From an uncultured Gemmatimonadales bacterium (GTDB taxonomy: Bacteria; Gemmatimonadota; Gemmatimonadetes; JACCXV01; JAHWKZ01), in NCBI GenBank assembly GCA_947259315.1, contig CAMYLR010000011.1, positions 69,590-133,589 of the forward strand: a stretch of DNA of 64,000 nucleotides, given 5' to 3'. Every line of letters starts with the position of its first letter. Position 1 is the stretch's first letter. Below are positions 27,254 through 48,801 of this stretch, in pieces. A model generated the notes under the pieces. That model searched no databases, was not told where the DNA came from, and saw nothing but the letters and a program-made list of their open reading frames with translations. A program made the position numbers and the translations under genes.

Positions 27254-27502
27254 GTGAGCGATACAATCGAGCGAACGGTGGGCGGCGTGACGGTACGCAT
27301 CGATCGCCTCTTGTGCGTCGGTTTTGGTGACTGCATCGACGAAGCACCGCACGCGTTTGCGTTGGACGATGAGGGGATCGCGGAGTTTGGCGAGGCAGTC
27401 AACGGCGTCGACCGGGGGCAACTTATCCGCGCCTGCGAAGCGTGTCCGGTCGATGCCCTGTCGGTGCACGACGCCGACGGCAACCCGCTGGCGGCAGAGT
27501 GA
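27254..27502 (+). CDS. Single-cluster ferredoxin
   Basis: 82 residues from a GTG at 27254. CVGFGDCIDEAPHAFALDD and CEACPVDAL give the four cysteines of a small single-cluster [3Fe-4S]/[4Fe-4S] ferredoxin of the Fer4 type used with P450s or radical enzymes. Its stop overlaps the GTG of the Mrp-type ATPase as GTGA. In this context it may supply electrons to the radical SAM enzyme encoded four genes downstream or carry a cluster for the Mrp protein; both are inference. Confidence 0.85.
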   Translation: MSDTIERTVGGVTVRIDRLLCVGFGDCIDEAPHAFALDDEGIAEFGEAVNGVDRGQLIRACEACPVDALSVHDADGNPLAAE

Positions 27503-28404
27503 CCGAGCGGACGCGCAAGGTACGGACGTACCACGAGGTAGCTGATCCGGACTCCGAGGATATCGTCGGCCAAATCGAGGCTCAGCGCTCGAAGTTGGTT
27601 GGCCGTTTGGCGGACATCGATCGATTGGTGGTCGTGGCCAGCGGCAAGGGCGGGGTGGGAAAGAGCGCGATAACCGCCAATCTTGCGGCGTTGATAGCCG
27701 AACGCGGGCGTCGCGTCGGCGCCATCGATGGGGATCTGCACGGCCCGTCGTTGGCTGCCATGCTCGGTGCCGAGCGTACACCGTTGGTCGTCTCCGAGCA
27801 CGGAGTCGAGCCAGCCGTCGGTGCGGCCGGCGTCAAGCTGATGTCGATGGACCTCGTGCTGTCGGATGGTGCGCCGCTCGAGTGGCGTCAACCCGAGGTG
27901 GCTGGATTTGTGTACCAGAGCACCCTCGACACCGGTGCGGTGCGGGAACTGCTGGCCGACGTCGTGTGGGGTGAGCTCGATTTTCTGTTGATCGATGCAC
28001 CGCCGGGTACCGACAAACTGGCGCGTTTGCTGGAGCTATTACCGGTGATCGACACACTATTGTTGGTCACGACGCCATCCGAGGCGGCTCGCCGAGCGGT
28101 GGGGCGCACTGTTCGACAAGCGCACGGGACGGGGATTTCGACGATCGGGCTGGTGGCTAACATGACCGCTCACGAGTGCCCCGACTGCGGTCGGTCGGAA
28201 CCGATGTTCGAGGCCGACGGCGCCGCCCGGCTGGCGACCGAAACGGGACTCGAGCTGTGGGCCGAGGTGCCGTTCGAGCCCCGCTTCGCGGTGGCTACCG
28301 ACGCCGGGCGGCCGCTCGTCCTCGAAGCGCCTGAGTCGCCAGCCGCACGCGAGCTCGGTCGCCTCGCGACCAAGCTCGCGAACGCAACGAGCGACACCGC
28401 ATGA
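27499..28404 (+). CDS. Mrp/NBP35-family P-loop ATPase (Fe-S cluster carrier)
   Basis: 301 residues from a GTG at 27499. Deviant Walker A VVASGKGGVGKSAITANLAA, then IDGDLHGPSLAAMLG, and the DFLLIDAPPGTDKLARLLEL switch region. The CPDCG motif late in the protein (HECPDCGRSEPMF) matches the paired cysteines by which Mrp/ApbC proteins hold a bridging [4Fe-4S] cluster. Expected role: ATP-dependent Fe-S delivery to apoproteins. The N-terminal 45 residues (EDIVGQIEAQRSKLVGRLAD) are not the usual DUF59 domain. It sits between the ferredoxin (GTGA overlap) and the zinc-ribbon PCP_red gene (ATGA overlap), pointing to a dedicated maturation role. Confidence 0.88.
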   Translation: MTERTRKVRTYHEVADPDSEDIVGQIEAQRSKLVGRLADIDRLVVVASGKGGVGKSAITANLAALIAERGRRVGAIDGDLHGPSLAAMLGAERTPLVVSEHGVEPAVGAAGVKLMSMDLVLSDGAPLEWRQPEVAGFVYQSTLDTGAVRELLADVVWGELDFLLIDAPPGTDKLARLLELLPVIDTLLLVTTPSEAARRAVGRTVRQAHGTGISTIGLVANMTAHECPDCGRSEPMFEADGAARLATETGLELWAEVPFEPRFAVATDAGRPLVLEAPESPAARELGRLATKLANATSDTA

Positions 28405-28841
28405 AGTTCCTGTGTATCGACTGCGATGAGGTAATGACGTTCGCCGAACGCGAGCTACCCGGCGACGGCACGTTGGCGGCGGTGTTCGAGTGTCCTGATT
28501 GTGGGCGCGAGATGGCGATGCTCACGAACCCGATGGAGACCAAGCTGGTGAGCGGGCTCGGGATCCAGGTCGGAGGCCGCACCGTCCCCGATCAGCCGCT
28601 GGAGCTGGTGCGATCATCGGTGACCACCGGCGACGAGCAAGCGTTCGCCGATTTGCCATTAACGGCCGGAACGGTGCGCTGGAGTGAAGCCGCTGCTGAG
28701 CGACTCCAAGGCGTCCCGGGATTCGTGCGCGGCATGGTGAAGAAGATCTACGGCGAGTACGCCGTCGAACGGGGGATCGAGGAGATCACTCCCGAGATCA
28801 TGGACCGCGCCCGGCAAGATCTCGGGCTCGAGGGGATGTAG
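28401..28841 (+). CDS. Zinc-ribbon protein with C-terminal PCP_red domain
   Basis: 146 residues. Cysteines C5, C8, C31 and C34 (FLCIDCDE and FECPDCGRE) form a rubredoxin-like zinc ribbon. Residues about 92-141, RWSEAAAERLQGVPGFVRGM followed by YGEYAVERGIEEITPEIMDRA, match PCP_red, the small helical domain at the C-terminus of the BchB/ChlB subunit of dark-operative protochlorophyllide reductase. No photosynthesis gene is in the window. The ATGA overlap with the Mrp gene places it in the same transcript. Function unknown; a tetrapyrrole- or Fe-S-related adaptor is inferred. Confidence 0.8.
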   Translation: MKFLCIDCDEVMTFAERELPGDGTLAAVFECPDCGREMAMLTNPMETKLVSGLGIQVGGRTVPDQPLELVRSSVTTGDEQAFADLPLTAGTVRWSEAAAERLQGVPGFVRGMVKKIYGEYAVERGIEEITPEIMDRARQDLGLEGM

Positions 28842-28843
28842 CG

Positions 28844-29230
28844 ATGCTGCGGCGGGCCGAGCACGAGCCACACCGGGCTCACAAGTTCCGTCAGGCGGCG
28901 ATCGCCTACCTCCACTACGCGGTGCTCTACGAGCTCGGTGTTTACGCGCTCTACGAGCAGGAGATGTTTCCCGCCAGCCGCGGCTCGCCGACGGTGTGGC
29001 TGGTTTTTGGCGTGGTCATCACCGGTCTCGTCGTATGGGGTCTGTGGTGGTGGCAGAACCGGTGGTTCGCGCGCGTCGTGTGGGTGGTGATGTCGTTGCG
29101 GCTCCCGGCGCTCATGGCGGGCGCCTTTTTGGGGACCGCGACCACCGTTGCTCCGGGTTTCTACCTCGCCGGCGGTATCGTCGTAATCGCTGCGATGTGG
29201 ATGATCGCTCGGGCAGCCTGGGACGTGTGA
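28844..29230 (+). CDS. Small integral membrane protein, unknown function
   Basis: 128 residues. A charged N-terminus (MLRRAEHEPHRAHKFRQAAI) is followed by about four hydrophobic helices (YAVLYELGVYALYE, WLVFGVVITGLVVWGLWWW, LPALMAGAFLGTA, FYLAGGIVVIAAMWMI). Tyrosines and tryptophans crowd the interfaces. It starts 2 bases after the zinc-ribbon stop, so it is surely translated with it. Family not recognised; by position it could anchor the PCP_red proteins to the membrane. Confidence 0.65.
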   Translation: MLRRAEHEPHRAHKFRQAAIAYLHYAVLYELGVYALYEQEMFPASRGSPTVWLVFGVVITGLVVWGLWWWQNRWFARVVWVVMSLRLPALMAGAFLGTATTVAPGFYLAGGIVVIAAMWMIARAAWDV

Positions 29231-29245
29231 GCCCGGGCCGCCGGA

Positions 29246-29274
29246 TTGACACTACCCCCAGCCGTCAGTATATA
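29246..29274 (+). promoter_or_regulatory. Sigma70-like promoter before the tandem USP gene
   Basis: TTGACA (29246-29251), a 17-base spacer and TATATA (29269-29274) give a near-consensus promoter. The predicted start near 29281 leaves about 45 bases before the ATG at 29328. It would drive the USP-PCP_red gene and the respiratory genes beyond it independently of the ferredoxin/Mrp genes. Confidence 0.65.
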
Positions 29275-29327
29275 AGGCGCCAACATCGCCGAAGGGTTTA
29301 CGCCCCGCCGCTCTAGTCCCGGACGGC

Positions 29328-31355
29328 ATGTACCACGAGATACTGGTTCCAGTAGACAATTCAGAGCACTCTGATTGGGCGGTCGATCGTGCCATCGAGA
29401 TCACCGGTCAATCCGGCGGCCGGATCACCGGTAACCACGTCTACGCCGCTCGCCTTCACGATGTTCGCTTCCGACAGCTCGAGACGGGACTTCCGGCTCA
29501 ATTCCAGACACCCGAAGAGATCAAGCGACAGCGCAAGGTTCACGACAAGCTGATCGAGAAGGGCCTGCAGCTGATCAGCGATAGCTTTCTCGATCAGGTC
29601 GAGAAGCGGTGCCACGAGGCGGGCGTCGACCTCACGCGGCAGCTGCTCGAGGGGATCCACTACGAGGAGCTGATCCGCGAGGCCAATCAAGGGGTGGGAC
29701 GTCTGCCTTCGCTTATCGGGTTCGACCCCAACATCGCCGACAAGTACGACGGCGGTGACGCCGTTCGTTCCGACGTGCGCCTGGGCGCCGACGGTCGGAT
29801 CGAGGCCGAGGAGGAGTCACTCGAGGAGAAGCTTGCGGGCACCTCGGAGCGGGCCTACGACCTGGTGGCGATCGGCGCCCACGGGCTCGGCCGGCAGCAG
29901 TTCAGCCAGCTCGGTGGGGTCGTCGCACGGGCGATCCGCGGCATAGAAAAGGACATCCTGATCGTCCGTGACGAGCGACCGATTCGCGACGGCAAGTACA
30001 TGGTGTGCGTCGACGGCTCAGCCTACAGCTACAAGGCGATGCGTCACGCGCTCGAGCTGGCACAGATGTTCGGCGGCAAGTTGTTCGTTTGCAGCGCGTT
30101 CGACGTTGAGTACCACCACGTCGTCTTCCACAACATCAAGGATGTCTTGTCCGTACAGGCATCGAAGGTGTTCAAGTTCGAGGAGCAGGAAGAGCTCCAC
30201 AACAACATCATCGACAAGGGGTTGCTCAAGCTCTGCCAAGCGAACATCAAGCGCGCCCAGGTCATGGCCGAGGAGTACCCGGACGTAGAGGTCGAAACCC
30301 AGATCCTGATCGGCAAGCCATTCCAGGTCGTGCTTCAGTGGGCCGAAGAGATCGAGCCGTCGCTGTTGATCTTCGCCCGCCACGGCAGCCATCGGATCGA
30401 GGGCACCGAATTGGGTTCGCAGGCCGAGAACTTGGCCCGCCTGGCACCTACCAACGTGCTGCTGATCGGCACCACCGAAGTTCATCCGGAAGAGATTCCG
30501 TGGATCGAAGAAGATGGGGAAACCGGTCTCGAATGGGCTCCCGAAGCGGAAGTCCGGATCCTTCGGGTACCGCCGTTCGCGCTCGGCATCGCCCGCAAGG
30601 CGGTCGAGGAGTACGTGATCGAACGGTACGCTTCCAACGGCAACGGCTCGGGCGCGTTGCCGATAGTGACCAACGCGCGGCTCGATGAAGCGATCCAGAA
30701 ACTGCTTCCCACGCACATGCAGCTCATCATGGGGATCGGCACCGCCGAAGAGCTGGCGCTAGCCGAGGTCAAGGCGGAAGAAGCGATGAAGCGCACGGTG
30801 GTGGAAGGGCACGACGACGTTCCCGTGCCCGAGACGCGGATCGTGGAGGCCAAGTGCCCCTACACCGGCCACGTCGAACAACGACCGTGGACAGCTAGCG
30901 ATCCGGTCGTTTGGACGCACGAGGCGCGGCAACGTCTCGAGCTCGTTCCGCTCATCGCGCGCCCATTGGCCCGCAACACCGTTGAGCGCTTTGCCCGCGA
31001 TCACGGATGGTGGCGCATCACGACGCCGGTCATGGACGAGAACAAGCAGGCGATGATCGAGGCCGACGAGTTCGATCTCGATACGATGCTCGTCATGTTC
31101 AAGGAGCTGCAGACGAAACAGATCAAAGCCGCGGCCGAAGGAGTCGACGGACTGACACCTGAGATGCGCAAGTTCATCGACGAGGCTAAGGAGGCCGGGG
31201 TCACGCGCTGTCCGATACGGGATATCGAGGCCGCTGCGGACAAGTGCCCGGTGGACTTCAAGACCGCTACCCCGGCCGAGGCCAAAGCGGCGATCGAGGC
31301 GGTCATGAAGGAGCAGAAGAGCGACGCCAACGGTGACGACCGGGACGAAGCTTGA
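29328..31355 (+). CDS. Tandem universal stress protein with two PCP_red domains
   Basis: 675 residues, cytoplasmic. Residues 1-215 form a USP domain (EILVPVDNSEHSDWAVDRAI, then AYDLVAIGAHGLGRQQFSQLGG). A second, KYMVCVDGSAYSYKAMRHAL to SLLIFARHGSHRIEG and NVLLIGT, spans about 222-383. Residues about 401-460 (LEWAPEAEVRILRVPPFALG, YVIERY) and 527-585 (VVWTHEARQRLELVPLIARP, TVERFARDHGWWRIT) each fit the PCP_red pattern. The last 90 residues are helical with two cysteines. USP domains bind ATP or act as nucleotide-gated adaptors; PCP_red in BchB lies near the bound tetrapyrrole. The TTGA overlap to the radical SAM gene indicates a joint function. A scaffold or sensor role in heme handling is inferred. 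Confidence 0.82.
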   Translation: MYHEILVPVDNSEHSDWAVDRAIEITGQSGGRITGNHVYAARLHDVRFRQLETGLPAQFQTPEEIKRQRKVHDKLIEKGLQLISDSFLDQVEKRCHEAGVDLTRQLLEGIHYEELIREANQGVGRLPSLIGFDPNIADKYDGGDAVRSDVRLGADGRIEAEEESLEEKLAGTSERAYDLVAIGAHGLGRQQFSQLGGVVARAIRGIEKDILIVRDERPIRDGKYMVCVDGSAYSYKAMRHALELAQMFGGKLFVCSAFDVEYHHVVFHNIKDVLSVQASKVFKFEEQEELHNNIIDKGLLKLCQANIKRAQVMAEEYPDVEVETQILIGKPFQVVLQWAEEIEPSLLIFARHGSHRIEGTELGSQAENLARLAPTNVLLIGTTEVHPEEIPWIEEDGETGLEWAPEAEVRILRVPPFALGIARKAVEEYVIERYASNGNGSGALPIVTNARLDEAIQKLLPTHMQLIMGIGTAEELALAEVKAEEAMKRTVVEGHDDVPVPETRIVEAKCPYTGHVEQRPWTASDPVVWTHEARQRLELVPLIARPLARNTVERFARDHGWWRITTPVMDENKQAMIEADEFDLDTMLVMFKELQTKQIKAAAEGVDGLTPEMRKFIDEAKEAGVTRCPIRDIEAAADKCPVDFKTATPAEAKAAIEAVMKEQKSDANGDDRDEA

Positions 31356-32632
31356 TCTCGGCAGTACCGCATATCGTCGCTTGGAACCTCACCCGGCGCT
31401 GCAATCTCGCCTGCGCCCATTGTTACATCGCGGCTGGATCGTGGCACGCGGCTGGAGAGGAGCTGCCGACCAGTGACTGCCACCGGATCGTGGACGAGAT
31501 CCTGGCGGTCAACCCGTCGCCGATGTTGATCCTGTCCGGCGGTGAGCCGCTGCTGAGGGATGACTTGGAATCGATCGCCGCTCGCGCTTCAGCCGGCGGT
31601 GCAACGGTCGTAGTCGGTACCAACGGCACTCGATTGACAGACGCGCGAATCGCGTCGCTCATGGCGGCCGGGGTGCAGGGTGTCGCGGTGAGCGTCGACT
31701 CCCTCGACCCTGTGTATCACGATCGTTTTCGACACGGCGCGGGCGCGCTCTCCGACACGTTGGCCGCGGTAGAGCGATTGAGCGACAACCGCTTGGATCT
31801 CGTTCTGCAGACCACCGTGACCCGCGGGAATCAAGCCGAAATAGGACGCCTCGCGTCATTGGCCGCTGATTCCGGGGCGGTCGCTTTCAACGTCTACTTC
31901 GTTGTAGCCACTGGAAGAGCCGGCACCATGAAGGGGATGTCGACCGCGGAAAATGATGATGTCTTGACAGAGCTCGCCGCGCTCGAGCGCGAGTACCGCG
32001 GTCGGATGCTCGTTCGGTCGAAGTGCCAACCCCAGATCATGCGTCACGTCTACGATTCGGATCCCGAATCACCGCTGTTGAACTACGCCACTCGTTGCCC
32101 GTGCGGAGTGCAGTACTGTCGGATCACGCCCGACGGGAAAGTGACGCCGTGTCCCTACATGGAGGTCGTTGCCGGCGACTTGAGTGCGCAATCGTTCGGT
32201 GAGATCTGGAGCGACTCGCCGGTGTTTGGGGATCTGCGCAGAGGAGAGCTGGGTGGGAAGTGTGGTCGTTGCGGGTATCGTGAGATCTGCGGTGGATGCC
32301 GCGCGCGGGCCTTCGCCGAGACGGGCGACTATCTGGGACCGGACGGGTCGTGCGGCTATGAGCCTGATGGTGTCGAGTCGCCGGTGACGCGGACGCGTGA
32401 GATCACCTACGGCACGCCAGCCCGGGCCGAGCTCGAGTGGTCACCCGAGGCGGCGGAACGAGTCGCTCGGATCCCGAGCTTCGTCCGCGGTGTCGTGACT
32501 CATCGCGTCGAGACCTTTGCCGCTGACCACGGTCACGATCGCGTTACCGCCGCGCTGCTCGACGAGGTGCGATCCCAGATGCCGATCGACTTCTCGAAAC
32601 GCCGACCCTTCTTCAGCCGGAAGCGCGAGTGA
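31352..32632 (+). CDS. Radical SAM/SPASM enzyme (NirJ/AhbD-like) with C-terminal PCP_red domain
   Basis: 426 residues from a TTG at 31352 in TTGA overlap. CNLACAHC (C17, C21, C24) binds the catalytic [4Fe-4S] cluster; SGGEPLLR follows. The C-terminal SPASM-type part (CPCGVQYCRITPDGKVTPCP, GKCGRCGYREICGGCRARAF, ETGDYLGPDG) is strongly like the NirJ/AhbC/AhbD enzymes that modify porphyrin side chains in heme d1 and siroheme-dependent heme synthesis. Residues about 361-409 (LEWSPEAAERVARIPSFVRG, VETFAADHGHDRVT) are PCP_red. The window's own heme operon uses HemQ, so this enzyme is probably not needed for protoheme; tailoring of a special heme or insertion into a partner protein is the inference. 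Confidence 0.85.
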   Translation: MISAVPHIVAWNLTRRCNLACAHCYIAAGSWHAAGEELPTSDCHRIVDEILAVNPSPMLILSGGEPLLRDDLESIAARASAGGATVVVGTNGTRLTDARIASLMAAGVQGVAVSVDSLDPVYHDRFRHGAGALSDTLAAVERLSDNRLDLVLQTTVTRGNQAEIGRLASLAADSGAVAFNVYFVVATGRAGTMKGMSTAENDDVLTELAALEREYRGRMLVRSKCQPQIMRHVYDSDPESPLLNYATRCPCGVQYCRITPDGKVTPCPYMEVVAGDLSAQSFGEIWSDSPVFGDLRRGELGGKCGRCGYREICGGCRARAFAETGDYLGPDGSCGYEPDGVESPVTRTREITYGTPARAELEWSPEAAERVARIPSFVRGVVTHRVETFAADHGHDRVTAALLDEVRSQMPIDFSKRRPFFSRKRE

Positions 32633-32633: not shown

Positions 32634-34457
32634 ATGAGTAGTGTCGCGACGGTGTTTCGAATCGCCGCGGTGGGGAATCTGCCACGGCTACGTGGAACGC
32701 GTTCGTTGGTTCCTAGCTTTGGCGCGGTCGCGCTGGGGCTGCTTATGGCGCAATCGGGGTTCGCGCAGGAAGCCGGTATCGCGACCCGCGAGTACGGCGA
32801 CTTCCCTTACATCGGCAGCCGAGTAGCGGTGTGGATAGCGGCGCAGGTCCACCTCATGTTCGCGGCGTTTGTTCTTGGCGTCCCGATGTTCGCGATGGTC
32901 GCCGAGGCGATCGGCATCTTTGGTGGCGACAAGCGCTACGACCGACTGGCCAAGGAGTTTACCCGACTTCTGCTGATCGCTTACAGCGCGACCGCCATCT
33001 GGGGTGCGGTTCTGGTTTTCTTCCTGACCACGTTGTACCCCCGGTTCTGGGCTCACCTGTCGGAGATCTTCGAAGTCTCGATGTGGATCTACGTCGGGCT
33101 CTTCTTCCTCGAGTCGTTCACTCTGTACCTCTACTACTACGGTTGGGATCGTTGGAAGGCAGGGACCGCGAAGTACGCGCACTGGGGGTTGGCGATCCTG
33201 CTCAACATCTGGGGCACGGCGGTCATGTTTATCGCCGACAGTTGGTTGAGCTACATGATGAGCCCGCCGGAAGTGATCACGGCCGATCCATCGCCGGGGG
33301 TCGTTCAGTTGTGGAGCGCGATCAACAACGCCACGTGGATGCCGATCAACATCCATCGCATCATCGCCAACGTCGTGTTCGGGGGCTCGGTCGTCGGCGC
33401 TTACGCCGCGTACCGGTTCCTGGCCGCCAAGTCCGATGAAGAGCGCGCGCACTACGACTGGATGGGGTACGTCGGCAACTTCATCGCGATCGGGGCGCTC
33501 ATCATCCTGCCGTTCGCCGGTTACTACCTGGGACGCGAGATCTACGAGTTCAACCAGCAGATGGGGATCACGATGATGGGTGGTTTCATGAGCTGGTTGT
33601 GGATCATTCAGGCCTTCTTGATCGGCGTCTTGTTCTTGACCGGCAACTACTACTTGTGGGTCGGCATGACTCGCATCCCCGGTGCCGAGCGGTTTCTTCC
33701 GTACACCAAGTGGATGCTCGTAGTGTTGGTCATCGGCGTTATCGTGTGGGCCACGCCACACACGATGATCGCCAATCGTGCCGAGCTCGAGGCGATGGGC
33801 GGCTCTCACCATCCGTTCCTGGGTGTGTTGGGCGTCATGAGCGCCAAGAACACCGCGGTCAACCTGATGATTCTGACGACGTTCCTTTCGTTCCTGATGT
33901 ACCGACGAGCCAACAAGCGCCCGGTGGTCGGGTGGGCCAAAACAGGGACAATCGTGCAGGCTTCGCTCTTCGCGTTATCCGCCGCGGTCGTGCTCTTCTA
34001 CGGCGTCTATGGCTACTTCGTGACAGCGATCGTGCGGATCGGCTTCAGCGTCTACCAGGTGCTGGCGGTGCTGGGGACGATCATCGCCGTCATGGTGCTC
34101 GATGTGTTGATGCTGCGCGGCTCCGAATCGCGAGGCGCGATTCAGTGGGGCAACATGCCGGCGCGATCGCAATACGCACTGTTTGTCTTGGTGGTCACGT
34201 TTACCTGGCTCATGGGATTGATGGGCTTCGCGCGCAGCGGCATTCGCCAACACTGGCACGTTTGGGAGGTCATGCGCGACACCAGTCAGTGGGCGGCCAC
34301 CCCAGCGTTGGGACCCGCGGCTCAGGTGATCAGCGTGTGCGTTCTGATCTTCCTCGTGCTGATCGCATTCATCTTCTGGCTTGGCGGGTTGGTGGAGAAA
34401 CCGCAGCTAGTACCGGAACAACCGGCACCTGGAGCTTCCGGAACCGTGACGAGCTAA
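32634..34457 (+). CDS. CydA-like membrane protein (cytochrome bd-type subunit I homologue)
   Basis: 607 residues with about 13-14 membrane helices. Homology to CydA is shown by H73 in AQVHLMFAAFVLG (cf. H19 of E. coli), FLESFTLYLYYYGWDR (cf. FLESTFVGLFFFGWDR) and H241 in INIHRIIANVVFG (cf. H186). It is not a normal bd oxidase subunit: I find no GRQPW quinol-loop motif. The segment matching the MEFQFGTNW region, with the Glu ligand of heme b595, reads LVFFLTTLYPRFW. The C-terminal half is longer, and no cydB follows. Cytochrome c genes come directly after it, so it may oxidise quinol and pass electrons to them instead of to oxygen. Long CydA-like proteins of this kind are, as I recall, also discussed in Nitrospira. 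Confidence 0.8.
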   Translation: MSSVATVFRIAAVGNLPRLRGTRSLVPSFGAVALGLLMAQSGFAQEAGIATREYGDFPYIGSRVAVWIAAQVHLMFAAFVLGVPMFAMVAEAIGIFGGDKRYDRLAKEFTRLLLIAYSATAIWGAVLVFFLTTLYPRFWAHLSEIFEVSMWIYVGLFFLESFTLYLYYYGWDRWKAGTAKYAHWGLAILLNIWGTAVMFIADSWLSYMMSPPEVITADPSPGVVQLWSAINNATWMPINIHRIIANVVFGGSVVGAYAAYRFLAAKSDEERAHYDWMGYVGNFIAIGALIILPFAGYYLGREIYEFNQQMGITMMGGFMSWLWIIQAFLIGVLFLTGNYYLWVGMTRIPGAERFLPYTKWMLVVLVIGVIVWATPHTMIANRAELEAMGGSHHPFLGVLGVMSAKNTAVNLMILTTFLSFLMYRRANKRPVVGWAKTGTIVQASLFALSAAVVLFYGVYGYFVTAIVRIGFSVYQVLAVLGTIIAVMVLDVLMLRGSESRGAIQWGNMPARSQYALFVLVVTFTWLMGLMGFARSGIRQHWHVWEVMRDTSQWAATPALGPAAQVISVCVLIFLVLIAFIFWLGGLVEKPQLVPEQPAPGASGTVTS

Positions 34458-34461: not shown

Positions 34462-35256
34462 ATGTGGGCGACGAACCTCAAGATTCTGGGCATCGTGCTC
34501 GGCACACTCGCCCTGTACACGTTGATCGCCAACGGCATCCCCCAGGTCGAGTCCGAGGTACCGCAGGAGTTGTCGTTCACAGGCGAAGTGAGCGCGGCCG
34601 AGTTGGTGGCGGCGGGTGAAGAGTTGTACGCCGGGGCTGGCGGCTGCACCGCCTGCCACGGGCTCGGCACGCGGGCGCCCAACTTGTTGAGCGACGCCGG
34701 CGGTCAAGGTGCGATCGGCGCGCGCTGCGGCCAGCGCGTAGAGGGTGAATCGTGCAAGGAGTATCTGTATCGATCGATGATCGAGCCCAATGTGTTTGTC
34801 GTTGAGGGGTTTCAGCCGATCATGCCGGACATGCGACGGACGCTGTCGGAGGTTCAGATCTGGGCCATGATCGCCTATCTGCAAAGCGTGGGGGGCGAGG
34901 TGACGGTCACCGGCGACGACATCGCGGCTGCGCAACCTGCCGGTGAAGACGAGGCGTCGGATTCAGGTGCGGGAGCGATGATCGTAGCGACCACTGATCC
35001 GCTCGAGTTGCTGCGTGAGATGCAGTGCCTGGCTTGTCACTTGCTAGGCGACGAGGGGGCTCAAGTGGGTCCGCCTCTCGATGACCTCGGAAGCCGCCTG
35101 ACGACTGATCAGATTCGTGAGTCGATCCTCGACCCCAACGCGGAGTTGGCGGCGGGCTACGAACAGTTCGGCGGTATGATGCCGGCCAACTTCGGTCAAA
35201 GGCTGACCGCCGAGCAGCTCGAGGTGATCGTGTCGTATCTCGGATCCCAAAAGTGA
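34462..35256 (+). CDS. Membrane-anchored diheme cytochrome c
   Basis: 264 residues. An uncleaved N-terminal helix (LKILGIVLGTLALYTLIANG) is followed by two class-I-like cytochrome c domains with heme sites C62-TA-C65-H66 and C189-LA-C192-H193. Probable distal Met ligands lie in QPIMPDMRR and GGMMPANFG. An acidic linker (PAGEDEASDSGAGA) joins the domains. It starts 4 bases after the CydA-like gene and is 7 bases before the next cytochrome gene. It should sit on the periplasmic face as the first electron acceptor from the CydA-like protein (inference). Confidence 0.88.
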   Translation: MWATNLKILGIVLGTLALYTLIANGIPQVESEVPQELSFTGEVSAAELVAAGEELYAGAGGCTACHGLGTRAPNLLSDAGGQGAIGARCGQRVEGESCKEYLYRSMIEPNVFVVEGFQPIMPDMRRTLSEVQIWAMIAYLQSVGGEVTVTGDDIAAAQPAGEDEASDSGAGAMIVATTDPLELLREMQCLACHLLGDEGAQVGPPLDDLGSRLTTDQIRESILDPNAELAAGYEQFGGMMPANFGQRLTAEQLEVIVSYLGSQK

Positions 35257-35263: not shown

Positions 35264-36067
35264 TTGAGCATCAATCGGTATCTGCGCCATCCGTTTTGGC
35301 AGGCGATTCTGGTCCTAGTGATCGCGTACGTGTTGATCGAGTACGGCATCCCGTATTTGCCTCCGCTAATCGGGATCAGCAGCGCGCCGGTACCACAGTC
35401 GGTCGTGTTGCAGTACATGCTGACCGTGTTGGCGGGAGTACTGATCTGGGTCAGCGACAATGAGGAGCGTTGGGCGCGGTTTCGCGAGCCGATCCGCGCG
35501 ACGCTCGTCGATCGCGACAAGCGAGTGTTACGGATTGCGCTACTCGTCATCGTCCCGCTGCTGACCGGATGGCTCACTTTCCGCGCCGTGCGTCAGACCG
35601 TGGCCGCGCCCCCCAGCTTGCGGTCGATCCATCCGGCACCACCGTCGTCGATCACGTTTCGTGGCCAAACGATGCAACTCGCTGGGCTGGAGAACCCGCT
35701 GCGCGAAGGCGACTTGATGGCTGAGGCCTATCGTGTCGGGAAGCGCGTTTACTACCAGAACTGTCTGCCGTGTCATGGCGACGCGCTGAGCGGAGACGGG
35801 CACTACGCGCACGGATTCACGCCCGCACCGCTGGCGTTTACCGGTTCGAGCACGATCGCTCAGCTGACCGAGAGTTTTGTGTTCTGGCGGATCGCCAAGG
35901 GCGGCCCGGGACTTCCACGCGAGGGCACGCCGTGGAACTCGGCCATGCCGGCGTGGGAGGACATCCTGAGCGAGGACGAGATCTGGTCGGTGATCGTGTT
36001 TCTGTACGAGCAGGCAGGCGTCTCGCCCCGGACTTGGGAAGAAGCCGAGGGGTCTGGTGAGCACTAA
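35264..36067 (+). CDS. Membrane-bound monoheme cytochrome c
   Basis: 267 residues from a TTG at 35264. About three N-terminal hydrophobic segments (FWQAILVLVIAYVLIEYGIP, VVLQYMLTVLAGVLIWVSD, LRIALLVIVPLLTGWLTF) precede a periplasmic cytochrome c domain with the heme site C167-LP-C170-H171 and a probable Met ligand in NSAMPAWEDIL. The membrane part is unusual for a simple cytochrome c and suggests a subunit of a larger quinol-oxidising complex. It overlaps the following gene by 11 bases. Confidence 0.85.
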   Translation: MSINRYLRHPFWQAILVLVIAYVLIEYGIPYLPPLIGISSAPVPQSVVLQYMLTVLAGVLIWVSDNEERWARFREPIRATLVDRDKRVLRIALLVIVPLLTGWLTFRAVRQTVAAPPSLRSIHPAPPSSITFRGQTMQLAGLENPLREGDLMAEAYRVGKRVYYQNCLPCHGDALSGDGHYAHGFTPAPLAFTGSSTIAQLTESFVFWRIAKGGPGLPREGTPWNSAMPAWEDILSEDEIWSVIVFLYEQAGVSPRTWEEAEGSGEH

Positions 36068-37604
36068 GGGGTTTGCGATAGGGGTCGCGTTGAGCGCATT
36101 TGTCGCGGCCGCGCCGGCGGCCGCTCAGGAAACGCCTGTCGGAAAGGCGATATACGATAAATGGTGCGCCGAATGCCACGGCGAGGACGGTGCAGGCGAC
36201 GGCTCGGCAGCAGCCTACATGTTGCCGCAGCCGAGGGACTTCACCACCGGGCTGTACCAGATTCGCACCACGCCCAGCGGCGAGCTTCCCACCGATGATG
36301 ACATCCTCAGAATGATCGACGAAGGCATGCCCGGGTCGGCGATGCCAGGCTGGAAAGAGTACCTGAGCGACACCGAGCGCAACGACCTGGTTCAGTACCT
36401 GAAGACCTTTTCACCGTTCTTCGAAGACGAAGCCCCGTCGCCGGTCGAGTACGGTGGACCGCCTGGAGTGAACGAGGAGGGCCTCGCCGAGGGGAAAGAG
36501 TTCTACGACAAGATCGAGTGCTGGAAGTGCCATGGACAGGCTGGCCGCGGAGACGGTCCGTCGGCGCCGACTCTCGAGGACGATTGGGAGCTTCCGATCC
36601 GAGCCACAGACTTGACCGAGGGTTGGAACTTCAACGGCGGCCACACGACGGAAGCGATCTTCGCCCGGCTGATGACGGGGCTCAACGGAGCGCCGATGCC
36701 GTCGTTCGCAGACCTGATCGACGCTGAGTTCATGACCGAGGAACAGCTGTGGCGCGTTGCGCAGTACGTGAAGAGCCTCTCTCCCGAGACGCCTGAGGTT
36801 CGAGAGGTCGTTCGGGCGGCTCTGGTCGAGACGCTTCCCACGAGTGTCGACGATCCGGCGTGGGATGCAATCGAGAGGTTTTACATCCCTCTCGTCGGGC
36901 AAATAATCGTCGAGCCGAGGTGGTTCGCGCCGACGGTCGACGGCGTGTGGGCGCAGGCCGCTCATGACGCCCAGCGCGTCGCGTTGCGCCTAACGTGGAA
37001 CGATCCATCGGAGAGCCCGAATCCGGAATGGGAGGAGTGGCGGCAGCGCGTGGTCAGCGTCATGGAGCCAAGCGTCGAGGCCACTGACGAGTTGCTATCC
37101 GATGCGCTTACGGTTCAGTTCCCAACCACGATCCCCGAGGGCATGAAGCGTCCCTATTTCTTGATGGGTGCTCAGGACGAGCCGGTGTACTTGTTGAGTT
37201 GGAACAGCGGTGGCGGCGCAACCGAAGCGCTCGGTCGCGGGATGAACGCGATCGAGCCGATCGGGGGTGCCTCGACGTTGACCACTGAGTCGACGTTCGA
37301 TGATGGACAATGGCGGCTCTATTTGAGTCGCGATCTGATCACTGAGAGTGCAGATCGGCTGGCTATCGAGACTGGCCGTCCGATTCCCATGGCGATCTTC
37401 GCCTGGGACGGTTCGAACGGCGAGTCCGGTACGCAGGGCGCGATAAGCACGTGGTACTTCTTGTATCTCGATCAGCCGACGGAGAACATTACGTACGCGT
37501 TTCCGGTAGTGGCGGTGCTTTTGACAGCCGTGCTGGGCTTGGTCATCATTGCGCGCGCTCAGCGCGCAACCGGCGGCGGTGGCCCTGAACCCGGGTCTGA
37601 TTAA
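36057..37604 (+). CDS. Diheme cytochrome c fused to an ethylbenzene-dehydrogenase-type heme b domain
   Basis: 515 residues from a GTG at 36057. The order is: signal peptide; two cytochrome c domains with heme sites C37-AE-C40-H41 and C155-WK-C158-H159 (Met candidates in GSAMPGWK and GAPMPSFAD); then residues about 245-480, which resemble the EB_dh/DMSO-reductase gamma-type heme b domain (WFAPTVDGVWAQAAHDAQRV, ALRLTWNDPSESPN, WRLYLSRDL); and a C-terminal anchor helix (FPVVAVLLTAVLGLVIIARA). EB_dh domains bind heme b through Met and Lys in molybdenum enzymes and nitrite oxidoreductase, but no molybdopterin subunit is nearby. Here it probably serves as a three-heme electron wire in the respiratory complex. 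Confidence 0.82.
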   Translation: MSTKGFAIGVALSAFVAAAPAAAQETPVGKAIYDKWCAECHGEDGAGDGSAAAYMLPQPRDFTTGLYQIRTTPSGELPTDDDILRMIDEGMPGSAMPGWKEYLSDTERNDLVQYLKTFSPFFEDEAPSPVEYGGPPGVNEEGLAEGKEFYDKIECWKCHGQAGRGDGPSAPTLEDDWELPIRATDLTEGWNFNGGHTTEAIFARLMTGLNGAPMPSFADLIDAEFMTEEQLWRVAQYVKSLSPETPEVREVVRAALVETLPTSVDDPAWDAIERFYIPLVGQIIVEPRWFAPTVDGVWAQAAHDAQRVALRLTWNDPSESPNPEWEEWRQRVVSVMEPSVEATDELLSDALTVQFPTTIPEGMKRPYFLMGAQDEPVYLLSWNSGGGATEALGRGMNAIEPIGGASTLTTESTFDDGQWRLYLSRDLITESADRLAIETGRPIPMAIFAWDGSNGESGTQGAISTWYFLYLDQPTENITYAFPVVAVLLTAVLGLVIIARAQRATGGGGPEPGSD

Positions 37605-37672
37605 CGTCTAGCCGACATTTAAGGGGTCGATAGCATCGTTGCATTGATCAACCACACATGAAGGAGAGGGAT

Positions 37673-38500
37673 ATGAACTTTTCACTGAGGCAGATCCTCG
37701 CCTTGGTCGTGGTGTCGGGGATCTCGATCGCCACCGCTTGTGGTGGTGGTGGCGAGCCAACCGATGACGGGGCCGACGGCGACGCTCCGGCAGCGGCCGG
37801 TCCGGTCGTAAGCCCGGACAGTGCGGCCATGATCACCGGGACGGTTTCGTTCGAAGGCACGGCGCCGGCGGCCGAGCCGATCGATATGAGCGAGGAGCCG
37901 ACTTGCGCCGAGAAGCACCCCGATGGCGCCATGCGCCAACTGGTCATGGTTGCGGGCGGTGGGTTGGCCAACGTCTATGTCTACGTGAAGTCGGGGTTGG
38001 GGGACCGGAGTTTCCCGACTCCGTCGGCGCCGGTGACGCTGGACCAGGACGGCTGCGAATACATGCCGCACGTCTTGGCGATACAGGTAGGGCAATCGCT
38101 GGAGATCAAGAACAGCGATGGGATCCTCCACAACATCAACACCCAGCCCACCGTGAACCGCGGTTTCAACATCAGCCAGCCGGTCGTGATGGAAACGTCG
38201 CGGGAGTTTTCGCAACCGGAAGTCATGATCCCGGTCAAGTGTGATGTCCACGGTTGGATGGAAGCGTTCATCGGTGTCCAGGCTCACCCGTACGCGGGTG
38301 TCAGTGGCGCCGACGGATCGTTCTCGTTGGCGGATCTGCCTCCCGGTGAGTACGAAATCGAAGCCTGGCATGAGTTGTACGGGACGCAGTCCCAAACGGT
38401 CACCGTAGGGGTCAAAGAGACCGCCGAAGTGAGCTTCACGTTCAGCTCCGATATGGCCGGGAACCACGTGCCTCTAGGCGAACCGCTCGTTCTCAGATGA
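37673..38500 (+). CDS. Cupredoxin-like lipoprotein (plastocyanin/carboxypeptidase-regulatory type)
   Basis: 275 residues from the ATG at 37673 (AAGGAG 6 bases upstream). A lipoprotein signal ends at C23 (SIATAC, then GGGG). Type-1 copper ligands are plausible in ILHNINT (His) and PVKCDVHGWMEAFIGV (Cys, His, Met), typical of the methylamine-utilisation/plastocyanin-like family with a following carboxypeptidase-regulatory beta sandwich (GADGSFSLADLPPGEYEIEA). Placed between the c-type cytochromes and the CuA subunit, and joined to the latter by an ATGA overlap, it is a natural electron shuttle to the oxidase. Confidence 0.83.
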   Translation: MNFSLRQILALVVVSGISIATACGGGGEPTDDGADGDAPAAAGPVVSPDSAAMITGTVSFEGTAPAAEPIDMSEEPTCAEKHPDGAMRQLVMVAGGGLANVYVYVKSGLGDRSFPTPSAPVTLDQDGCEYMPHVLAIQVGQSLEIKNSDGILHNINTQPTVNRGFNISQPVVMETSREFSQPEVMIPVKCDVHGWMEAFIGVQAHPYAGVSGADGSFSLADLPPGEYEIEAWHELYGTQSQTVTVGVKETAEVSFTFSSDMAGNHVPLGEPLVLR

Positions 38501-39255
38501 ACTGGAGTTGGCTGATGCCCGAGCCGGCGTCGACGTTTGGCGCCGGCATCGACTCGATCTACTACATCATCCTGTGGATCACCGGGGCGATCTTCGTGCT
38601 CGTCGAGACCGCGTTGATCGTGTTCATCATACGGTATCGGCATCGCGAGGGTCGGGTCGCCGCTTACTCCCACGGCAACAAGAAAGCCGAAATCGTATGG
38701 ACAGTGATCCCGTTCATTTTGGTGCTGTTTATCGTCTACGCCAGCAACGACATCTGGTTGGAGGTCAAACGAGCCGACCAAGGCGGTGCGGCTCCGGCGG
38801 ACGCGCTACCGCTCAGGGTAGTCGCTAAGCAATTCGAATGGAACGTGACGTACCCGGGCCCGGACGGAGAGCTCGACACCGCTGACGATTTCGTCAAGCG
38901 AAACCAGCTTCACGTCCCCATCGGAAGGGCGGTTCGGATCGATCTCGGATCCGAAGACGTAATTCACTCGTTCTTCCTGCCGGATTTTCGCGTCAAGCAG
39001 GACGCCGTGCCGGGGATGACGATCCCGGTCTGGTTCGAGGCCACACGAACCGGAGAGTTCCCGTTGGCGTGCGCTGAACTGTGTGGGTTGGGGCACTATC
39101 GTATGCGCGCCTCGCTGACGGTCCACGAAGCTGCCGATTTCGATCTTTGGCAGTCCCAAGAGATCGCCGCCAGCGGCTCGCCGACTGGTGCCAGTGAGAT
39201 CGATACCGAAAGAGCAAATGAAGCCGAGATCAGCGAAGGGGAGGAGAGCGCATGA
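38497..39255 (+). CDS. coxB: Cytochrome c oxidase subunit II
   Basis: 252 residues. Two N-terminal membrane helices (YYIILWITGAIFVLVETALI and IVWTVIPFILVLFIVYAS) are followed by a cupredoxin domain with the binuclear CuA site: His in EDVIHSFFLPDF and the cluster CAELCGLGHYRM. Unlike the other subunit II in this window it has no fused cytochrome c domain, so it must accept electrons from a separate donor, probably the upstream cytochromes or cupredoxin. An Ala/Glu-rich tail of about 35 residues follows the domain. ATGA overlaps on both sides. Confidence 0.93.
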   Translation: MNWSWLMPEPASTFGAGIDSIYYIILWITGAIFVLVETALIVFIIRYRHREGRVAAYSHGNKKAEIVWTVIPFILVLFIVYASNDIWLEVKRADQGGAAPADALPLRVVAKQFEWNVTYPGPDGELDTADDFVKRNQLHVPIGRAVRIDLGSEDVIHSFFLPDFRVKQDAVPGMTIPVWFEATRTGEFPLACAELCGLGHYRMRASLTVHEAADFDLWQSQEIAASGSPTGASEIDTERANEAEISEGEESA

Positions 39256-41057
39256 GTACGACCCAGCTGTTGGCGCCCAACGTAACCGCGCAGCACTGGG
39301 CCGATCCGAGCCATCCGGATGATCGCCCATTCATCCGGAGATACATCTTTTCAACCGATCACAAGACGATCGGAAACCAGTTCATGTTTATGAGCTTGTT
39401 CTTTCTGCTGGTTGGCGGAGCGCTGGCGATGATGATCCGTTGGCAGCTCGGTTGGCCGGGTCAGCCGATGCCCGGGGGAGGGGTGCTGCCCGAGACGATG
39501 GCGCCGGGCGGAATCCTGTTGCCCGAGTTCTACAACTCGCTGGTCACCATGCACGGCACGTTCATGATCTTCTTTGCCATCATGCCCTTGCTGGTAGGGA
39601 TGTTCGGCAACTGGCTAATCCCGCTCCATGTCGGTGCTTCTGACATGGCGTTCCCGCGGCTCAACATGATGTCGTTTTGGTCGGCTGTCCCCGCGGGGTT
39701 CATCATGCTGGCCAGCTTCGTCGTCGAAGGTGGAGCCGCCGGGGCGGGGTGGACGGCTTATCCGCCACTGAGCGCGGTGCCGGAGTACAGTGGGGTCTCG
39801 ACCGGACAGCAACTTTGGTGTGTGAGCCTGATCATCCTCGGGTTCTCTTCGCTGATGGGGGCGGTCAACTACATCACTACGATCGTCAATATGCGCGCTC
39901 CCGGTATGACCTGGATGCGCATGCCGTTGCCGATCTGGTCGCTCTTTATCACCGCGATCTTGATCCTGCTGGCGATCCCGATCCTGGCTGGCGCAGCGAT
40001 CATGTTGCTGTTCGACCAGACGATCGGCACGACGTTCTTCCTGCCCGAGGCCGGTGGTCAGCCGCTACTGTGGCAGCACCTGTTCTGGTACTTCGGCCAC
40101 CCCGAGGTCTACATCCTGATCCTACCAGCGATGGGCGTCGCGTCCGAAGTGATCGCAAATGGATCACGCAAGCCGATCTTTGGTTATCCCGCGATGGTCG
40201 GCGCGATCGTGGCTATCGCGTTCCTCGGTTGGATCGTGTGGGGACACCACATGTTCCAGAGCGGGATGAACCCGCTTCTGGGATCCAGCTTTATGCTGTC
40301 GACGATGATCATCGCCGTGCCTTCAGCGATCAAAGTGTTCAACTGGCTGGGTACGATTTGGCGCGGCGACATTCACTTCCATACGCCTATGTTGAACGCT
40401 CTAGCTTTCGTCGGGATGTTCGTGATCGGTGGATTGTCGGGCGTGTTCATGGCGTCGACGCCGGTCGACATTTACATCCACGACACGTACTTCATCGTCG
40501 CGCACCTCCATTACGTGCTGTTTGGCGGCAGCCTGTTCGCGATCTTCGCCGGGATCTACTTCTGGTTCCCGAAGTTCTTCGGCCGGATGTTGAGCCCAAC
40601 CCTCGGCAAGATTCACTTCGCACTCACGTTCGTGTTTTACAACCTGGTGTTCTTTCCGATGCATAATCTCGGGTTGGGCGGCATGATGCGGCGCATCTAT
40701 GACCCCAATCAGTACGGCTTCCTCGAGCCGCTTCAGCCGATGAACACGTTCGTGTCGGTGTTCGCGTTGGCACTCGGTGTGAGCCAGCTGGTGTTCTTCT
40801 TCAACATCCTCTGGTCGCTGTGGCGCGGAGAGAAAGCGCCAGAGAATCCGTGGCGGTCGAACTCGTTGGAGTGGAGCCTGGCGTCGCCGCCGCCGCACGG
40901 AAACTTCGAAGCGATGCCGGCGGTGTATCGCGGGCCATACGAGTACAGCTACCCCGGTCGAGGCGAGGACTTCTGGCTCCAGGGTGAGCCACCGGACGGC
41001 GGAGCGGTCCATGCGCCCACCGGTGGGGCACCGGTGGGCGAGGGGGTGCCCCAATGA
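39252..41057 (+). CDS. coxA: Cytochrome c oxidase subunit I (heme-copper, A type)
   Basis: 601 residues, twelve expected helices. Heme and CuB ligands are visible: TMHGTFMIFF (low-spin heme His), WYFGHPEVYILILP (CuB His and the cross-linked Tyr, with the A1-type Glu), WGHHMFQSG (CuB His pair) and VAHLHYVLFGG (His for hemes a and a3). The C-terminal 60 residues (GPYEYSYPGRGEDFWLQGEP and a Gly/Pro tail) are soluble. It pumps protons while reducing oxygen. It is translationally coupled to subunit II before it and subunit III after it. Confidence 0.95.
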   Translation: MSTTQLLAPNVTAQHWADPSHPDDRPFIRRYIFSTDHKTIGNQFMFMSLFFLLVGGALAMMIRWQLGWPGQPMPGGGVLPETMAPGGILLPEFYNSLVTMHGTFMIFFAIMPLLVGMFGNWLIPLHVGASDMAFPRLNMMSFWSAVPAGFIMLASFVVEGGAAGAGWTAYPPLSAVPEYSGVSTGQQLWCVSLIILGFSSLMGAVNYITTIVNMRAPGMTWMRMPLPIWSLFITAILILLAIPILAGAAIMLLFDQTIGTTFFLPEAGGQPLLWQHLFWYFGHPEVYILILPAMGVASEVIANGSRKPIFGYPAMVGAIVAIAFLGWIVWGHHMFQSGMNPLLGSSFMLSTMIIAVPSAIKVFNWLGTIWRGDIHFHTPMLNALAFVGMFVIGGLSGVFMASTPVDIYIHDTYFIVAHLHYVLFGGSLFAIFAGIYFWFPKFFGRMLSPTLGKIHFALTFVFYNLVFFPMHNLGLGGMMRRIYDPNQYGFLEPLQPMNTFVSVFALALGVSQLVFFFNILWSLWRGEKAPENPWRSNSLEWSLASPPPHGNFEAMPAVYRGPYEYSYPGRGEDFWLQGEPPDGGAVHAPTGGAPVGEGVPQ

Positions 41058-41683
41058 GCGAGGCGGCAGCCATTCACGCCCACGCTCCGCGCCCCATGGA
41101 GGGGATCCGGGTCTACAACGTGAAGCTCGGAATGTGGGTCTTCCTGCTGTCCGAGGTGATGTTTTTCAGCGGGCTGATCGGCGCGTACATCATCCTGCGG
41201 TTTGCAAACCCAGAACAATGGGCGGCGCCGGGTGAGGTGCTAAACGTCACGCTGACGGCGTTCAACACGTTTATGCTGATCTGTAGCAGTGTAACGATGG
41301 TGAAGGCCTTTGCCGCGATCGAGCACGGCGATCAGGCCGGGCTCAAGAGGTGGCTGCTGGCGACGATCGTTCTGGGCGCGGCGTTTGTCGGCATTCAGGT
41401 CTTCGAGTACATCAAGCTCGCCGAGCACGGGTTTGTGCCGATGGCCAGCCAGTACGCTGCGGACGGCGGCGGGCCACTGTATGGCTCCACGTTCTACACG
41501 ATGACCGGCTTCCACGGTGCGCACGTTACGATCGGCGTGCTGTGCCTCATCTTCACGTTGGTCAAGGCGCTACGCGGTCACTACACCGAGGAGTACTACT
41601 CGGGCGTGGAGATCATGGGGTTGTACTGGCACTTCGTGGATCTGGTTTGGATTATCTTGTTCACGATCGTTTACTTGATCTAG
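41054..41683 (+). CDS. coxC: Cytochrome c oxidase subunit III
   Basis: 209 residues, five helices, the short bacterial form. Conserved segments: KLGMWVFLLSEVMFFSGLIG, FYTMTGFHGAHVTIGV and the end YYSGVEIMGLYWHFVDLVWI. Starts in an ATGA overlap with subunit I and is followed after 9 bases by subunit IV. It stabilises the dinuclear centre of subunit I; no cofactor of its own. Confidence 0.93.
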   Translation: MSEAAAIHAHAPRPMEGIRVYNVKLGMWVFLLSEVMFFSGLIGAYIILRFANPEQWAAPGEVLNVTLTAFNTFMLICSSVTMVKAFAAIEHGDQAGLKRWLLATIVLGAAFVGIQVFEYIKLAEHGFVPMASQYAADGGGPLYGSTFYTMTGFHGAHVTIGVLCLIFTLVKALRGHYTEEYYSGVEIMGLYWHFVDLVWIILFTIVYLI

Positions 41684-41692
41684 GACGTCGAC

Positions 41693-41962
41693 GTGGCTAA
41701 CAAGAAACCGAACTACTACTTGGTCTGGTTGTACCTGTTGGTCCTGACGATCGCCGAGGTGGGAGTAGCCTTCTTGTCGGGGCTACCGTTCGAGGTGCTG
41801 GTCTTCATCCTGCTGTCGTTGGCGATCTGGAAAGCGGCGCTCGTAGCGATGTACTACATGCACCTTCGGTTCGAGCCGCCCCGGCTCGTTATCATCGCTC
41901 TGGCTCCCCTTCCGCTGGCGGTTCTGATCACGATCGTCGTGGTGACGATGGAGGTCTTCTGA
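41693..41962 (+). CDS. Cytochrome c oxidase subunit IV (CtaF/CyoD-like)
   Basis: 89 residues from a GTG at 41693. Three hydrophobic helices in the pattern of the bacterial subunit IV: YYLVWLYLLVLTIAEVGVAF, VLVFILLSLAIWKAALVAMY and LVIIALAPLPLAVLITIVVV, with the characteristic AALVAMYYMHLRFE between helices 2 and 3. An assembly/stability subunit. A second homologue is encoded in the opposing oxidase operon at 42925-43242. Confidence 0.85.
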   Translation: MANKKPNYYLVWLYLLVLTIAEVGVAFLSGLPFEVLVFILLSLAIWKAALVAMYYMHLRFEPPRLVIIALAPLPLAVLITIVVVTMEVF

Positions 41963-42319: not shown

Positions 42320-42850
42320 TTACTCGTCCCAAATCCGGTTGAAGTGCGTCAGCAACCGGGGGTGGCGGTACCATAGCCAGGCCGCCATCCCGGCGGCAGC
42401 CAGCAGGTTCGCGACCGCGACGCCCCAAAACGCGATGCTTCCGAGCAATGGTTGGCCGATCGCCACCATGTAGACGTGGAAAGCGACCTCGAAGAAGATA
42501 AAGAAGAAAACCAGGGCGATCCCGAGCGGTGGGATGCGCTCGATCTCGGTCACCAGAAACGACGCTACGACGCCGACGCCGATGAACGCCGCGTGGTGCA
42601 CGATCGTGTAAGCCGCGACCATACCCGGATCGATGACCGTGTGACCGGCAGCCGCTTCACCTCCCTTGAAGAGCACAGTTCCGAGGAGCGACGGGGTGTA
42701 GAGCGCCTGATACTGGACTACGTCGAGGAACAGGAACCAAGCGGCAACGATCCCGGCACCGATCATCCCGGTCACAAAGCCTTCGATCAGGACGTTTGGG
42801 GCGGAAGCGGGTGGGACGATGGGTCGTGTTGCTGAAGGGGCGTCGGTCAT
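42320..42850 (-). CDS. Four-helix membrane protein ending the caa3 operon
   Basis: 176 residues from the ATG at 42850 (GGGAGG 4 bases upstream); a longer frame to 43189 overlaps the subunit IV gene and is rejected. Four hydrophobic helices: FVTGMIGAGIVAAWFLFLDV, YTIVHHAAFIGVGVVASFLV, LGIALVFFFIFFEVAFHVYM and IAFWGVAVANLLAAAGMAAW. Histidine pairs (HH, FHV) face the membrane. It is the final gene of the caa3-type operon. Family not recognised; an assembly or heme-related role is possible. Confidence 0.65.
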   Translation of the reverse strand: MTDAPSATRPIVPPASAPNVLIEGFVTGMIGAGIVAAWFLFLDVVQYQALYTPSLLGTVLFKGGEAAAGHTVIDPGMVAAYTIVHHAAFIGVGVVASFLVTEIERIPPLGIALVFFFIFFEVAFHVYMVAIGQPLLGSIAFWGVAVANLLAAAGMAAWLWYRHPRLLTHFNRIWDE

Positions 42851-42924
42851 TGTACCTCCCGAAGCGCGAGTGGAAGGCAGATGATGGCCGGGCGTCTGCT
42901 GTGACGCAAGCCTGATCCCATCGA

Positions 42925-43242
42925 TCAGGCCGGCGCCATCAGCCTCAGCGCCCCGAACAGCAGCATGAGGGCGAGGATGATGGCCGCGGCAACGACCAGC
43001 CCGGTCGACAGAATCGCGGTCAAGATCGGCCGATCGTACCGCAGGTGCATGAAGAACATCGCCACCAGCGCGAACTTCGTCGCCGAGAGTACCAACAGAA
43101 TCGGCGCGATCACTGTTCGCAGGAACGGGATGTAGAACACCGCCACCTCGAGCAGCGTGATGATCGCCAAGATGAGCGCCACCAGCCAATACGTGCTTCG
43201 GCTGGCGTGAGCACCACTGTGATGTTCAGCGATCTCGTTCAT
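42925..43242 (-). CDS. Cytochrome c oxidase subunit IV family protein (caa3 operon)
   Basis: 105 residues, three helices, with the subunit IV signature TKFALVAMFFMHLRYDRPIL between helices 2 and 3; the first helix is STYWLVALILAIITLLEVAV. It lies 13 bases after subunit III of the same operon. Paralogue of the protein at 41693-41962. Confidence 0.85.
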   Translation of the reverse strand: MNEIAEHHSGAHASRSTYWLVALILAIITLLEVAVFYIPFLRTVIAPILLVLSATKFALVAMFFMHLRYDRPILTAILSTGLVVAAAIILALMLLFGALRLMAPA

Positions 43243-43255
43243 GCGCGCGCACCCC

Positions 43256-48689: not shown

Positions 48690-48767
<78 letters not shown>

Positions 48768-48801
48768 TGCAAACAAGCTTGCCCCAAACCGTTTCCCGCC
48801 G

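Follow-up and report, generated by a model that had tools for sequence, protein, structure and literature searches.

A PCP_red-bearing gene module co-inherited with a CydA-like respiratory complex in three bacterial phyla

We report that four core proteins, namely an Mrp NTPase, a zinc-ribbon-PCP_red protein, a USP-PCP_red protein and a radical-SAM-PCP_red enzyme, are co-inherited and co-localized with a CydA-like respiratory complex in Gemmatimonadota, Methylomirabilota and Acidobacteriota. The locus was analyzed in a window of 64,000 nucleotides, the whole stretch of DNA under study, which comes from the 2.4-Mb genome of a non-photosynthetic Gemmatimonadota bacterium, assembled in 33 contigs at about 96% completeness. 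The module is very probably accessory to the CydA-like complex. We put at roughly 45% the more specific reading, that it is a dedicated maturation module for a CydA-like/cytochrome c/EB_dh respiratory complex, acting by iron-porphyrin modification with PCP_red as the handling domain.

Gene order and PCP_red domains of the module

The genes lie on one strand (+) in the order ferredoxin, Mrp, zinc-ribbon-PCP_red, TM128, USP-PCP_red, radical-SAM-PCP_red, CydA-like, two-domain cytochrome c, membrane cytochrome c and cytochrome c-EB_dh, and are followed on the same strand by a cupredoxin/carboxypeptidase-like gene and by CoxB, A, C and D, with intergenic distances of -11 to +97 bases from ferredoxin to CoxD. 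The first-pass annotation had described an overlap-linked gene chain running into a respiratory operon, and the spacings agree with this: -7 bases between ferredoxin and Mrp, -4 between Mrp and the zinc-ribbon gene, +2 from there to TM128, +97 from TM128 to the USP gene and -4 from the USP to the radical SAM gene, whose stop at 32632 is separated by 1 base from the CydA-like ATG at 32634. Profile matches likewise confirm the identities proposed for the zinc ribbon, the two USP domains, the ferredoxin, the Mrp/NUBPL NTPase, the radical SAM plus SPASM enzyme and the CydA-like protein.

The small ferredoxin (Fer4_15/Fer4_13; 27254..27502; Pfam 38.0 bits, cut-off 22.4) is conserved in Gemmatimonadota modules and went undetected in most Methylomirabilota and Acidobacteriota loci. 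The adjoining Mrp/NUBPL Fe-S carrier P-loop NTPase (open reading frame as listed 27442..28404; PF10609 210 bits, above cut-off) more likely starts near 27496, with a 7-base overlap with the ferredoxin gene, and is a core gene across the three phyla; it shares PF10609 and the C-x2-C motif, here ECPDC, with Mrp/ApbC/NUBPL Fe-S carriers, the module copy being operon-specific. The zinc-ribbon protein (28401..28841; PF08369 53.5 bits) ends in PCP_red and has two conserved C-x2-C pairs; its named relatives are nearly all from Gemmatimonadota MAGs, and as a query against plasmids it gave no matches. TM128 (28844..29230) is a predicted membrane protein that matched no family in Pfam or NCBIfam, with orthologues in many Gemmatimonadota modules and weak detection in Methylomirabilota and Acidobacteriota loci. 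The tandem USP protein (29328..31355; Usp 113.6 bits, PCP_red 56.3 bits over two stretches) has orthologues carrying 2 to 3 PCP_red copies.

A profile search with PF08369 found four matches in the source genome, all at this locus, and hmmscan was concordant. Three of the four segments pass the Pfam cut-off of 32.5 bits, in the zinc-ribbon protein (28680..28814; 55.8 bits), on the C-side of the USP protein (30912..31046; 43.5 bits) and in the radical SAM enzyme (32438..32572; 51.2 bits), while the degenerate copy on the N-side of the USP protein (30534..30626; 24.6 bits) fails by itself. A second HMM was built from the BchB C-termini of phototrophic relatives only and is therefore independent of the module; among all reading frames of the window it ranked the same four segments highest, at 28.8, 24.9, 21.7 and 8.0 bits. 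Given that 200 shuffles of all window ORFs reached at most 12.0 bits, three copies lie beyond chance and a chance similarity of helices is ruled out for them, whereas the fourth, at 8.0 bits, falls within the shuffle range with this HMM alone. Support for the fourth copy comes instead from the Methylomirabilota and Acidobacteriota orthologues, where the domain is complete, and from the AlphaFold model of the USP protein, in which a short-long-medium helix triplet is predicted twice, at residues 405-459 and 531-580, the sub-threshold copy included. For the zinc-ribbon protein (mean pLDDT 79.7, about 95 across the PCP_red part), the top PDB matches of the model are the PCP_red NMR structures 2KRU and 2L09, with modest Foldseek E values of 3e-3 and 6e-3 and rmsd of 1.3 and 2.9 Å, respectively. 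The four PCP_red segments reported in the first-pass annotation thus stand.

A fifth, decayed copy may lie near USP residues 611-640, which align to the third PCP_red of orthologues. One USP Cys-Pro aligns with the VP of this decayed copy, and we thus dropped Cys-Pro motifs, considered as heme-regulatory motifs, as evidence. Zinc-ribbon-PCP_red proteins of Methylomirabilota and Acidobacteriota (L145-L191, L200-L220) have an extra conserved CPF motif ahead of PCP_red, a candidate heme-regulatory motif that we record as a lead. Some Methylomirabilota proteins outside the standard set have three or four tandem PCP_red domains (L176 2269-3225 and 13783-14877; L179 1034-2728; L180 3503-4351).

By sequence and fold, the domain is the same small helical PCP_red as in BchB/ChlB (DPOR; 2KRU, 2L09, 2YNM), and a P-loop Fe-S-associated NTPase and a ferredoxin occur in both systems. 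In contrast to BchB/ChlB, the module has its PCP_red on zinc-ribbon, USP and radical-SAM proteins, and the Oxidored_nitro domain is found nowhere in the source genome. The test for BchB/ChlB membership (TIGR01278) gave 35.8 bits against a cut-off of 490, and a profile search of the source genome returned no PF00148 protein (BchB/N/Y/Z, NifD/K), in keeping with the earlier remark that chlorophyll reductase is absent. A relic of lost chlorophyll synthesis is disfavored, since the set and the CydA-like genes are kept together in three phyla and the source genome has no PF00148 protein left. PF08369 has been used among phototrophy marker families (PMC12815261). Open-access papers, searched by domain name, Pfam accession and NCBI product name, yielded no published account of such a module; the first reading knew of no described function for the combination.

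Co-occurrence with the CydA-like respiratory genes

Besides the source genome, 297 Gemmatimonadota genomes were sampled, 114 of which have PF08369 and 77 at least three matches to it. A CydA-like protein is present in 74 of these 77; conversely, at least three PCP_red matches occur in 74 of the 77 genomes with a CydA-like protein, leaving 3 without the set. The other PF08369-positive genomes mostly have 1 or 2 matches, the best of which is usually high-scoring and in a long frame, as BchB would be. Both states occur within several families (e.g., f3, f5, f7, f9 and f10). In Methylomirabilota, PF08369 was found in 64 of 95 genomes, with 2 to 10 matches each, and a CydA-like protein in 57 of the 64 positive versus 2 of the 31 negative genomes. 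The Fisher p values (4e-62 in Gemmatimonadota, 1e-15 in Methylomirabilota) overstate independence, as the genomes are related.

The neighborhoods are shared as well. From the USP gene to CoxC, gene order is kept in Gemmatimonadota families f1, f3, f4, f5, f6, f7, f9 and f10 as far as the contigs extend, with minor rearrangements among families upstream of the USP gene. Methylomirabilota loci have a USP protein with two or three PCP_red copies, radical-SAM-PCP_red, Mrp and zinc-ribbon-PCP_red genes adjoining CydA-like and cytochrome genes. Among Acidobacteriota, where PF08369 is present in 15 of 149 genomes, several have the CydA-like, cytochrome, three-copy USP, Mrp, zinc-ribbon-PCP_red and radical-SAM-PCP_red genes inside 20 kb or on nearby stretches. 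In some Methylomirabilota loci the module genes instead follow the cluster's own Cox genes on their downstream side. Gene order varies among the three phyla and the set remains together. The link with the respiratory operon that comes next, put forward in the first-pass annotation, is borne out in three phyla by both co-occurrence and common neighborhood.

A survey for modules away from respiratory genes, which had been named as a possible refutation, returned few exceptions, usually at contig edges, and mostly no refutation. Module genes occur in genomes in which a CydA-like protein was undetected at L054 (genome G016) and at L042 and L254 (genome G159): L054 and L254 are truncated by a contig end, and L042 is a solitary radical-SAM-PCP_red gene. 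G016 is a near-complete genome with a canonical CydA, and its module locus, without detectable CydA-like protein, is interrupted by contig ends. In Methylomirabilota loci L186-L191 the zinc-ribbon-PCP_red gene is solitary, with other module genes unrecognized within the fetched flanks.

Several Gemmatimonadota modules have genes for an ABC transporter, comprising an ATPase and an ABC2-type permease, placed between their zinc-ribbon/ferredoxin genes and the USP gene (L041 8490-10231; L051 4911-6589; L040 4673-6483). A CcmAB heme exporter was ruled out within these three modules, as the transporter parts match ABC2_membrane and not CcmB.

The inferred client is the CydA-like membrane protein (32634..34457; PF01654, Cyt_bd_oxida_I, 75.6 bits, cut-off 26.2), the sole CydA-family member found in the source genome. 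In a profile alignment with E. coli CydA, His19, Glu107 and His186 are kept and Glu99 is replaced by Tyr. The GRQPW region with Glu445 reads IRQHW, and Met393 lies where the alignment is poor; the loss of Glu445 is the weaker statement, because the local alignment spans only about the first 290 residues and is weak past the first half. The heme site thus appears, by alignment, to be without two canonical acidic residues. Downstream lie a cytochrome c with two c domains (34462..35256), a membrane-anchored cytochrome c (35264..36067), both recognized by profile matches, and a protein with two cytochrome c domains and an EB_dh-type heme b domain (36057..37604; TIGR03477 86.3 bits, below the cut-off of 169.85), all three co-conserved. 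The open reading frames of the cupredoxin/carboxypeptidase-like protein, so named from its sequence, and of CoxB, CoxA, CoxC and CoxD (37658..41962) keep this order in many loci. Directly after them, on the opposite (-) strand, is a second heme-copper oxidase cluster (42320-46620; a CoxA-type protein of 729 aa and a CoxC-type protein). Next to ccEB-like genes at L236 (G238:C92), L176 and L237 is another CydA-like type, which is more divergent (about 50-55% identity) and in some genomes is adjacent to multi-PCP proteins.

Bd-like CydA proteins termed OR-N and OR-C have been described from Nitrospirota and Nitrospinota (PMC10839748, PMC12342949). Like the CydA-like protein of the module, to which we liken them by description, they are divergent and presumably use cytochrome c. 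Neither paper mentions protochlorophyllide or radical SAM proteins.

The radical SAM enzyme and the supply of heme

The radical SAM/SPASM enzyme with C-terminal PCP_red (31352..32632; Radical_SAM 83.1, SPASM 36.5, PCP_red 46.1 bits) has both the CxxxCxxC motif and the SPASM domain, which places it in the radical-SAM superfamily. Its top curated families are NirJ2 (269.1 bits) and AhbD (264.0 bits), then TIGR04053, with NirJ and AhbC lower; all these scores are below the family cut-offs, which for NirJ2 and AhbD is an NCBIfam equivalog threshold of 500 bits. The same ranking was found for orthologues in Methylomirabilota and Acidobacteriota, at 270-303 bits against NirJ2/AhbD. A tree of 21 sequences puts the radical-SAM-PCP_red proteins in one group (support 86/96), separate from NirJ and TIGR04053, with PqqE much farther. 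Judged from sequence, the enzyme is nearest the tetrapyrrole group (NirJ2/AhbD/TIGR04053) and remote from PqqE.

With NirJ, NirJ2 and AhbD, which belong to heme d1 and alternative heme synthesis, the module enzyme has in common the radical SAM plus SPASM core; these are its nearest curated families and its tree neighbors. The substrates of AhbC, AhbD and NirJ are tetrapyrrole side chains (PMC7242693). Unlike these enzymes, it forms its own clade, below all equivalog cut-offs, carries a C-terminal PCP_red and is linked to an oxidase-like operon rather than to cd1 nitrite reductase. A Thermus TIGR04053 gene adjoins a nitrite reductase gene.

The window also encodes hemA, hemB, a hemQ-like protein (Chlor_dismutase), hemL, hemE and ferrochelatase (48706-56590), a gene set that we take, by family knowledge, to specify the coproporphyrin-dependent route. 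Given this operon with a HemQ-like protein and a ferrochelatase, the radical SAM enzyme is probably unnecessary for heme b.

Proposed role and alternative explanations

The favored model is one of dedicated maturation. The radical SAM enzyme, of NirJ/AhbD type, would modify iron porphyrin side chains, its substrate being coproheme, or heme made by the coproporphyrin pathway, whose genes lie 16-24 kb downstream. PCP_red, which in BchB is part of an enzyme that binds and reduces a tetrapyrrole, would hold the tetrapyrrole or pass it from protein to protein; Mrp, plus ferredoxin where present, would deliver Fe-S clusters or electrons; the USP protein, of the ATP-binding type, would act as a nucleotide-dependent scaffold or chaperone, and the product would go into the CydA-like subunit. 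We hold it tentative, a little short of even odds, that the module serves the complex via tetrapyrrole chemistry. The first-pass annotation had proposed a dedicated Fe-S/tetrapyrrole module: its respiratory link holds and its tetrapyrrole part gains support from the position of the radical SAM enzyme near NirJ/AhbD, while Fe-S maturation has as its basis the Mrp carrier and the ferredoxin, the latter outside the core beyond Gemmatimonadota-type loci. In a bolder version, which we regard as rather doubtful, the module supplies a novel type of cytochrome c-linked bd-like oxidase with a new modified heme, such as an iron tetrapyrrole of chlorin or NirJ type, which it makes and inserts; PCP_red would then be a general tetrapyrrole carrier that predates chlorophyll synthesis or stands apart from it.

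A caveat to the heme reading is that PCP_red could be a protein-docking domain instead of a tetrapyrrole binder. Assembly would then proceed without tetrapyrrole chemistry: the radical SAM enzyme would act on the CydA-like protein or on a cytochrome by altering a side chain or peptide, and PCP_red would be a tag that gathers the module proteins. We hold this unlikely: the domain does occur on unrelated proteins in 1 to 4 copies, related SPASM enzymes often modify peptides too, and the same co-occurrence data fit, but the enzyme clusters with heme-type enzymes and not with PqqE, and an unsystematic look at the module noticed no candidate precursor peptide. Regulation by redox or energy status, with the USP and zinc-ribbon proteins sensing oxygen or nucleotide state to control the respiratory complex and the Fe-S proteins acting as sensors, would accord with known roles of the USP family, with a G-9x-GS-type nucleotide motif read off the second USP domain, and with Nitrospira marina USPs near low-oxygen-induced operons (PMC8115632); it is improbable in that it leaves unexplained the radical SAM enzyme and the Mrp carrier conserved in every phylum.

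That AhbD is among the nearest radical SAM families and that HemQ/coproheme pathway genes lie within the window would suit an oxygen-independent, AhbD-like backup to HemQ for heme b synthesis, placed in the operon by chance. A general backup, however, is not expected to track the CydA-like gene so tightly, and the enzyme scores below the AhbD cut-off, which makes this explanation decidedly improbable. The location of the CydA-like and cytochrome c genes immediately 5′ of CoxBACD would fit a replacement of complex III (quinol to cytochrome c) by the module and the CydA-like complex, ahead of the neighboring aa3 oxidase; but cytochrome b proteins are also encoded in the source genome, and the Alternative complex III marker ActD is present in 286 of 298 genomes, the source included, irrespective of the module. 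We consider this replacement extremely improbable and rejected it.

PCP_red is regarded as a chlorophyll-synthesis domain, yet 64 of 95 Methylomirabilota and many Gemmatimonadota genomes have PF08369, mostly in the module described here. The module also offers a defined set of genes that, expressed together, could bring the CydA-like complex within reach of assay. If the maturation reading is true, widespread, uncharacterized CydA-like respiratory complexes would have their own assembly pathway, PCP_red function could be tested outside photosynthetic systems, and there may be a new heme modification to be found.
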